From assembly GCA_011042225.1 (NCBI GenBank), contig DQXT01000111.1, positions 1-36,393 of the forward strand: a stretch of 36,393 bases of DNA. The letters are read 5' to 3'. Below are positions 1,548 to 2,586 of the stretch, one piece after another (the stretch's first letter is position 1; each line of letters opens with the position of its first letter). The notes beneath the pieces are model-generated. The model was not told the DNA's origin and did not search any database. It saw only the letters and a list, made by a program, of their open reading frames with translations. The stretch is from Deltaproteobacteria bacterium (lineage in GTDB: Bacteria > Desulfobacterota > Dissulfuribacteria > Dissulfuribacterales > UBA3076). Position numbers and translations under genes: made by a program.

Positions 1548-2054
1548 TTATTTTTCAAATATTATCACTTCTTCAAGCGATTTGCGTGTTGAAGTCTGTT
1601 TTCTATGTGCAGGATGACCCAGGGCCAGGACTGCCATGAGTGCGAAATTTTGTGAAAGACCCAGCAGACCTCGCACTCGATCGGAATTCTTCAGGATTTC
1701 TCCCAGCCAAACAGCTCCCAGGTCTAATGAATAAGCAGCGAGGAGCATATTTTGAATACAGGCACCAATGGCCTGATAGTCTTTTAGTTCATTGTACATG
1801 GCATCTTTGTCAACAAAGACTGGAATCAGGGCCTTAGACCCCTGTATGACCTTTTCATAACGGGTCAATTCGGCAATCTTGGCCTTTAGCTCTTTGTCCG
1901 TTACTATTGCGAAACGCCATGGCTGATTGTTGAGACCCGAAGGCGCCCAGGTACCTGCCTTGATAATTTGTATAAGCGTTTGATGCTCTATAGAGTCAGC
2001 GGTGAAATCGCGAATACTTCTTCGTTTATGTATGGCATCCAATACCGGATTCAT
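1548..2054 (-). CDS. Nitroreductase family protein
   Basis: RRSIRDF...GTWAPSGLNNQPWRFAIV...GAVWLGEI matches the FMN-dependent nitroreductase fold. Confidence 0.9.
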   Translation of the reverse strand: MNPVLDAIHKRRSIRDFTADSIEHQTLIQIIKAGTWAPSGLNNQPWRFAIVTDKELKAKIAELTRYEKVIQGSKALIPVFVDKDAMYNELKDYQAIGACIQNMLLAAYSLDLGAVWLGEILKNSDRVRGLLGLSQNFALMAVLALGHPAHRKQTSTRKSLEEVIIFEK

Positions 2055-2135
2055 GAAAAAGACCTTTAATCATTAGACATCCTTCACGACAAGTCAAAAA
2101 TAGTTTACACTTTGTTGATTTTGTATTTTGGCAGT

Positions 2136-2207
2136 GAAACTTGAAATTTGAAATTGGGAAAAACACAAAGATATAGATGCGTTACCTAATTTCAAATTTC
2201 AAGTTTC
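2136..2207. repeat. Perfect 20-bp-arm inverted repeat (GAAACTTGAAATTTGAAATT / AATTTCAAATTTCAAGTTTC)
   Basis: Arms at 2136-2155 and 2188-2207 are exact reverse complements; the stem can extend by a G-T and two G-C pairs. Confidence 0.9.
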
Positions 2208-2358
2208 GACACCGGCATTCAATTCGACAATACACGCTTTTTCAAAAATAGTGTAAACTGATAAATGAAAAATGCCAATAATTAAAAGTCTTTCATATCA
2301 ATTTTCTTATACCTAAACAAAAAAAGCAACCTAATCAGGCGAGTGTTTTATAGTATCT

Positions 2359-2586
2359 ATGTCTAGCGGCAAAAAAGAAAAAGAGCCCCGCAACAGCTCC
2401 AGAAGTTCTAATTGGGGCAGGCGCAAGCAGTATCGTTGCCATGTCTGTAACAGGGAACTGCCTTTTTGCTGGAATTGCCCCTGCGGTTTTCAGATTTGTG
2501 ATGACTGTCTGAAAGAAAACATGTGGGGCATGAGCAATAATGCAATATGGATCTGCCCTGACTGCGGACGGATAAGGGGCTTTTGA
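2359..2586 (+). CDS. Small Cys-rich zinc-ribbon protein
   Basis: 75 aa; YRCHVCNRELPFCWNCPCGFQICDDCLKENMWGMSNNAIWICPDCGRIRGF contains several CxxC pairs. Confidence 0.75.
   Translation: MSSGKKEKEPRNSSRSSNWGRRKQYRCHVCNRELPFCWNCPCGFQICDDCLKENMWGMSNNAIWICPDCGRIRGF

Follow-up and report, generated by a model that had tools for sequence, protein, structure and literature searches.

Introduction

The intergenic region between a nitroreductase gene and a small cysteine-rich gene in a deltaproteobacterial contig contains nested inverted and direct repeats, and raises the question of whether such a structure is a mobile element, a regulatory cruciform, or a structured RNA. The window, i.e., the whole stretch of DNA that was analysed (36,393 nucleotides, contig DQXT01000111.1), originates from a member of the genus UBA3076, which is Seep-SRB2, a group of syntrophic partners of methane-oxidising archaea. 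Two congeners of the host, UBA3076 (DFBQ) and FWG174 (JAJSZR), have been assigned to Seep-SRB2, class Dissulfuribacteria, as syntrophic partners of ANME archaea (PMC10553843).

The first-pass annotation placed the repeats between divergent nitroreductase and zinc-ribbon genes, and this arrangement is borne out by a PF00881 protein encoded on the minus strand and a cysteine-rich 75-aa ORF on the plus strand. A Pfam search with the latter (2359-2586) returned no match; in congeners too, a small cysteine-rich ORF adjoins the nitroreductase gene. The analysis below indicates that a MITE, a non-autonomous DNA transposon found in Seep-SRB2 and Seep-SRB1a bacteria, almost certainly occupies positions 2076-2276 as a degenerate copy.

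Boundaries and Terminal Structure of the Element

Every repeat string quoted in the first-pass annotation is found where it was reported, and each extends further than first read: the central inverted repeat to 26-nt arms with 92% complementarity (2136-2161 and 2182-2207), the outer inverted pair to 15 nt at 87% (2102-2116 and 2245-2259), and the 11-bp direct repeat to 18 nt at 89%. The outer inverted pair and the direct repeat overlap, being for the most part one sequence viewed in two ways, and the perfect 20-bp arms and the TCAAAAATAGT direct repeat occur only in the window copy and are not family features. The repeats are thus present, but the element boundaries read from them, 2094-2259, were too narrow. 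Alignment with 25 further copies from dispersed sites, flanks included, shows that similarity to the window sets in sharply at GGCATCCTTC and breaks off sharply at GAAGGATGCC, beyond which the flanks are unrelated. Directly outside the aligned copies lies an 8-bp direct repeat, in which 158 of 208 flank positions match, compared with 86.9 ± 7.3 when flank pairings are shuffled (10,000 shuffles, maximum 120 matching positions). These sharp ends, together with the duplication immediately outside them, define an element of 201 bp (Table 1). The direct repeats at 2094-2104 and 2242-2252, previously taken as possible target duplications, are both internal to the element, and the true duplication lies outside 2094-2259.

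Table 1. Features of the element and its surroundings in the window.
Feature	Position	Strand	Basis or remark
Nitroreductase gene	1548..2054	-	PF00881, E 8.8e-28
Left target-site duplication AATCATTA	2068..2075		7/8 match with 2277-2284; orthologous loci
MITE copy, left to right end, 201 bp	2076..2276	+	alignment with 25 dispersed copies
Left terminal inverted repeat GACATCCTTC (family GGCATCCTTC)	2076..2085	+	copy alignment
Outward-facing -35-like TTGACT, first base 22 bp from left end	2092..2097	-	sequence
Left subterminal motif AGTTTACACTTT (the outer inverted repeat of the first-pass annotation)	2102..2113	+	both ends of MITEs with unrelated interiors
Palindrome left arm, 7-bp units (TTGAAAN)n	2136..2161	+	repeat parsing; copy lengths 201/208/215
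Palindrome right arm, 7-bp units (AATTTCN)n	2182..2207	+	repeat parsing
Right subterminal motif AGTGTAAACT, inverted copy of left motif	2250..2259	-	MITEs with unrelated interiors
Right terminal inverted repeat GAAAAATGCC (family GAAGGATGCC), decayed	2267..2276	+	copy alignment
Right target-site duplication AATAATTA	2277..2284		copy alignment, orthologous loci
75-aa cysteine-rich (zinc-ribbon-like) ORF	2359..2586	+	sequence

In the window copy, 2 of the 10 bases in the right terminal repeat and 1 of the 10 in the left depart from the family consensus, and the left target-site duplication reads AATTATTA in the congeneric genomes G001, G004, and G005. The 201-bp element contains no ORF of at least 80 aa. 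The subterminal motif AGTTTACACTTT is a putative transposase-binding site, as judged from its recurrence in other short elements described below.

A Dispersed Family with Target Duplications and Empty Sites

Window positions 2060-2300, used as a query against the host genome, matched approximately 15 distinct further places in full or in part; several of these matches stop at contig ends, as is usual for repeats, which break assemblies. Each of seven congeners yielded at least 23-29 scored matches, and two members of another genus of the host family gave weaker ones, while 30 other genomes of the host order, as well as the viral contigs, plasmids, and phages searched, gave none. The mobile-element reading of the first-pass annotation had been made to depend on the repeat being neither single-copy in the host and its relatives nor subject to gradual divergence with no insertion boundary; the element is multi-copy, and sharp insertion boundaries are observed in relatives, at other loci.

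The 8-bp duplication is perfect in 36 of 74 independent full copies and matches at 7/8 positions in 17 more, so that 53 of the 74 retain at least 7/8. An empty site is provided by locus L054 (G001, JAUWHV), which is filled, and its counterpart L180 (UBA3076, DFBQ), which is empty; the two are 94% identical over 792 bp with 0 gaps, and the target CATATTTG occurs once in the empty locus. A second, slightly diverged pair consists of the filled locus L055 and the empty locus L145, with the target AATTTTCC. Insertions favour AT-rich, mostly intergenic 8-mers (80% A+T, pattern NAAWWTTN) and avoid genes, with 13 of 50 lying inside an ORF of at least 100 aa compared with 244 of 285 control positions. 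Family members are 161-225 bp long, their lengths clustering at 201, 208, and 215 bp. The family thus has these features of a MITE: a length below 500 bp, no transposase gene, terminal inverted repeats, a constant 8-bp duplication, and dispersal with empty sites.

Copies in assemblies other than the host reach 98% identity to the consensus, while the intact end pattern has no exact match in the host, indicating that the host copies are decayed. Other small repeats have been inserted into members of the family. A second dispersed palindromic repeat, containing CTTCTCAATAAGTCCGGGCAAATCATATTTTGCGACTATC, is nested within MITE copies at L197 (G004:C167, 2025-2367) and L110; a small inverted-repeat insert (GGGGTATGCACTTGACTC ... 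GAGTCAAGTGCATACCCC) lies inside a copy at about 2707-2854 of L093; and in JABZFQ, copies at L094, L095, and L126 are interrupted by a repeat with TTAGGAACGTGGACGAAATAACTT at its start and the inverse of that sequence at the far end.

History of the Insertion at the Window Locus

The congeneric genomes G001, G003, G004, and G005 all hold the window-locus insertion or its remains. G001 and G005 have a 27-bp deletion in common, most of the element has been lost in G003, and another repeat is nested in the element in G004. An empty version of this locus was not found: the nitroreductase gene occurs in five genomes of the genus, counting the host, and the insertion or what is left of it is present in every one. 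More distant relatives cannot be aligned at this locus. Most simply, the insertion is older than the split of at least five congeneric species. The left end of the element lies 21 bp from the nitroreductase start codon, and most of the upstream region of the gene is therefore element sequence. On the MITE reading, the window copy is an old insertion, immobilised by decay, that makes up nearly all of the nitroreductase upstream region.

The Internal Palindrome and Alternative Readings

The palindrome at the centre of the element could also be read as a structured RNA or a regulatory cruciform, the latter having been put forward in the first-pass annotation, that is maintained by selection at the window locus. 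Its position between divergent genes is compatible with such a role, and the window copy folds strongly: the 201-nt fold has a free energy of -54.3 kcal/mol (z = -6.1; none of 200 dinucleotide-shuffled sequences folded as well), and the z values on the two strands are -6.1 and -5.9. However, an Rfam search with the element returned no match, and in the consensus structure computed from 34 copies covariation contributes -0.05 kcal/mol and the central stem is not kept, although gaps arising from differing unit numbers weaken this test. The number of units on one arm does not correlate with that on the other (r = 0.04, 30 parsable copies), and orthologous copies have been deleted or interrupted in G001, G003, G004, and G005. 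The variable number of 7-bp units and the lack of covariation do not support an RNA or cruciform function, which we consider very unlikely; the palindrome is more probably passenger DNA, in which units have been gained and lost. A REP/BIME or RAYT-type palindrome moved by a tyrosine (Y1) transposase would likewise be palindromic, intergenic, and multi-copy, as the window element is, and in G042 another MITE of the set has a Y1-like gene nearby (L285). REP/BIME elements of the RAYT type are mobilised by a Y1 transposase through single-strand transposition without target-site duplication, and they are not known to make 8-bp duplications. The present copies, in contrast, show clear 8-bp duplications in most cases and have DDE-type inverted ends, making this alternative scarcely credible. 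Of the earlier proposal of a small non-autonomous mobile element, MITE-like or REP-like, the former part holds, given the dispersal, the 8-bp duplications, and the empty sites, whereas the latter fails on the duplications. The palindrome is explained as ordinary mobile DNA, and its treatment as an RNA or regulatory device is unnecessary.

A further reading, which adds to the MITE reading and is compatible with it, is that the element or its ends act as a putative mobile promoter, in which the outward-facing TTGACT is combined with a -10-like hexamer supplied by the AT-rich target. At the window locus, TTGACT and AATGAT (2074-2069), separated by a 17-bp spacing, form a promoter-like site directed toward the nitroreductase gene, whose start codon is 21 bp from the element, and TTGACT is present in 50 of the 53 copies with a duplication. 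Matches of at least 4/6 to a -10-like hexamer occur in 36% of left flanks compared with 13% of shuffled ones, and matches of at least 5/6 in 14% compared with 4%. This excess, however, follows automatically from the target preference NAAWWTTN and is therefore not evidence of selection, and the leader at the window locus would be very short. Judged from these sequence features, a promoter function appears rather doubtful.

Shared Ends and the Missing Transposase

The two ends of the element are dissimilar, and each has GGCATCCTTCA at the tip and AGTTTACACTTT further in. Exact matching of the tip plus AGT against 16 genomes uncovered further end variants. Other short elements, with unrelated interiors, have the same layout, in which one end comprises GGCATCCTTCA, approximately 8 bases, and AAAAGTAGTTTACACTTTT, and the other comprises GGCATCCTTCATT, a few bases, and AGTTTACACTTTT; these are also flanked by 8-bp duplications. 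The same ends and duplications on unrelated interiors suggest that one transposase serves many passengers. The tip would then be the putative cut site, and AGTTTACACTTTT the putative binding site, of a single shared transposase. A transposase of the DDE type, provided in trans by an insertion sequence or transposon that was not found in these assemblies, may recognise the subterminal motif and cut at the GG/CC tips, and MITEs with other interiors would use the same transposition machinery. MITEs that have these ends but whose interiors are built from other, unrelated repeats (e.g., CTCACGCAAAGGCGCAAAGA or GAACCGCAGAATATCGAA) are located at L250, L252, L253, L255, L257, L262, L266, L278, and L285-L287.

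A MITE is also expected to have ends in common with the autonomous element that mobilises it. No such parent was found among the PF00872, PF01610, PF12762, and PF01609 loci of the genus, PF00872 and PF01610 having also been searched in 12-13 other element-bearing genomes. None of the transposase loci searched is flanked by GGCATCCTTCA or AGTTTACACTTT ends. In approximately 40 regions inward of exact end matches, the other end, where found, belonged to a short MITE, and a transposase was not seen; among end pairs 0.45-3.5 kb apart (L111, L141, L155, L178, L184, and L190), those examined held ordinary genes or gaps rather than a transposase. A multi-copy parent can drop out of a short-read assembly, so the absence of the parent is weak evidence.

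Four transposase families were considered as parents, and none showed the MITE ends at the loci inspected. ISL3-family elements have GG-starting ends and 8-bp duplications, and an ISL3 element occurs in G007, while the host retains remnants. The intact G007 copy, however, ends in GGTTCTTCGCTATTTAGTGTGGGTA (GGTTCTTCGCTATTTAG), unlike the GGCATCCTTCA termini of the present MITEs, and the other ISL3 loci lack matching ends; the family is absent from several element-rich genomes, e.g., C00003060, JAUWQO, and JABZFQ. The IS256 family, with GG-starting ends and 8-9-bp duplications, is present in G002 and some congeners and absent from the host and the element-rich G041, G042, G043, and G046. IS256-like ends in the genus are GGTACTGTCAACTTTTTT rather than MITE ends, with GGTACTGTCAACTTTTTTGTGT in place of the MITE tip GGCATCCTTCA. 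IS256-like elements and remnants in G002, G005, and G007 have this one end, GGTACTGTCAACTTTTTTGTGT, in common (L078, L082, L083, L086, L087, and L089). IS1595 (PF12762) is nearly absent in the genus, and no fetched DDE_Tnp_1 (PF01609) locus has MITE ends.

Comparison with Known MITEs

Literature searches, conducted without ISfinder and most subscription papers, returned no earlier report of the element, but several described MITEs resemble it in part. Chunjie from Geobacter uraniireducens is described as a mostly intergenic, non-coding MITE of 178-235 bp with 38 copies, conserved inverted ends, and direct repeats, plus partial copies (PMC10969869); by that description it is like the present family, which is also non-coding, similar in size, and mostly intergenic. 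In a contig scan, no record with a Geobacter title matched the 32-bp end pattern that characterises the present family. BrickBuilt from Porphyromonas gingivalis contains internal tandem repeats whose unit number varies between copies (PMC4596501), and like the present MITEs it combines variable internal units with the occurrence of several MITE types with similar ends in one species. Its units, however, are 23 bp long and form one array, in contrast to the 7-bp units on both palindrome arms here; it occurs in a single species, and it has ends similar to those of the IS5-family ISPg1/ISPg9 (PMC4596501). The hupL MITE of Ca. Thiomargarita nelsonii is likewise a high-copy element of an uncultured seep bacterium, for which the authors reported no likely parent in ISfinder, but it has 10-bp direct and 19-bp inverted repeats (PMC4853749) instead of 8-bp duplications and inverted ends of ~10 bp.

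Distribution across Classes of Sulfate-Reducing Bacteria

A scan of 84,980 species with the 32-bp end pattern yielded 105 stretches in 17 assemblies, and in an evenly drawn sample of the phylum the element occurs in 3 of 395 genomes, the host included, and so has spread horizontally. Two of the matching assemblies, CR9063A (JAJSZT) and JABZFQ, belong to Seep-SRB1a of the class Desulfobacteria (PMC10553843); JAUWQO, JAPVVG, and JAFDFV were placed in Seep-SRB1a by the similarity of their flanking DNA to JABZFQ and JAJSZT rather than by a published table. In five Seep-SRB1a-type assemblies, 25 copies are 93-97% identical to the nearest Seep-SRB2 copy, whereas the proteins of the element-bearing JAFDFV contig L108 are far less similar to those of the window (pheS 61, pheT 42, rplT 60, and infC 57% identical). 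Given such copy identity against 42-61% for housekeeping proteins, and the rarity of the element in the phylum, vertical descent does not explain the distribution. The MITE copy of L108 (3544-3758) lies between infC and rplT, within the translation-factor/ribosomal-protein cluster.

Two apparent extensions of this range were set aside. C00003060 (MAXP), which supplies many element copies, is not claimed as an independent third lineage, as its uup protein (L172, MAXP01000217, 4406-5896) is 79% identical to that of the window, in the Seep-SRB2 range; the assembly may be mixed or misnamed. The single archaeal occurrence, L093 (QENJ01000012, "Methanophagales archaeon"), is on a contig whose genes look bacterial and is a probable bacterial contamination of an archaeal bin.

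The tree of copies is poorly resolved, but host labels cluster on it, with 7 changes compared with 34.6 in shuffles, so that a small number of transfers and subsequent local amplification fit best. A set of MITEs that differ in their interiors but have one pair of dissimilar ends in common, and that are served by one transposase, may circulate among sulfate-reducing ANME partners of different classes and mark gene exchange in or around the consortia, a tentative proposal to which we give somewhat less than an even chance; shared sediment habitat, rather than shared consortia, is a strong alternative for the cross-class distribution. The MITE itself is of an ordinary kind, and the shared ends, the missing parent, and the cross-class distribution are the less ordinary part. 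Near-identical and multi-copy in Seep-SRB2 and Seep-SRB1a and rare elsewhere in the phylum, these MITEs provide a sequence tag for DNA exchange among ANME partners.
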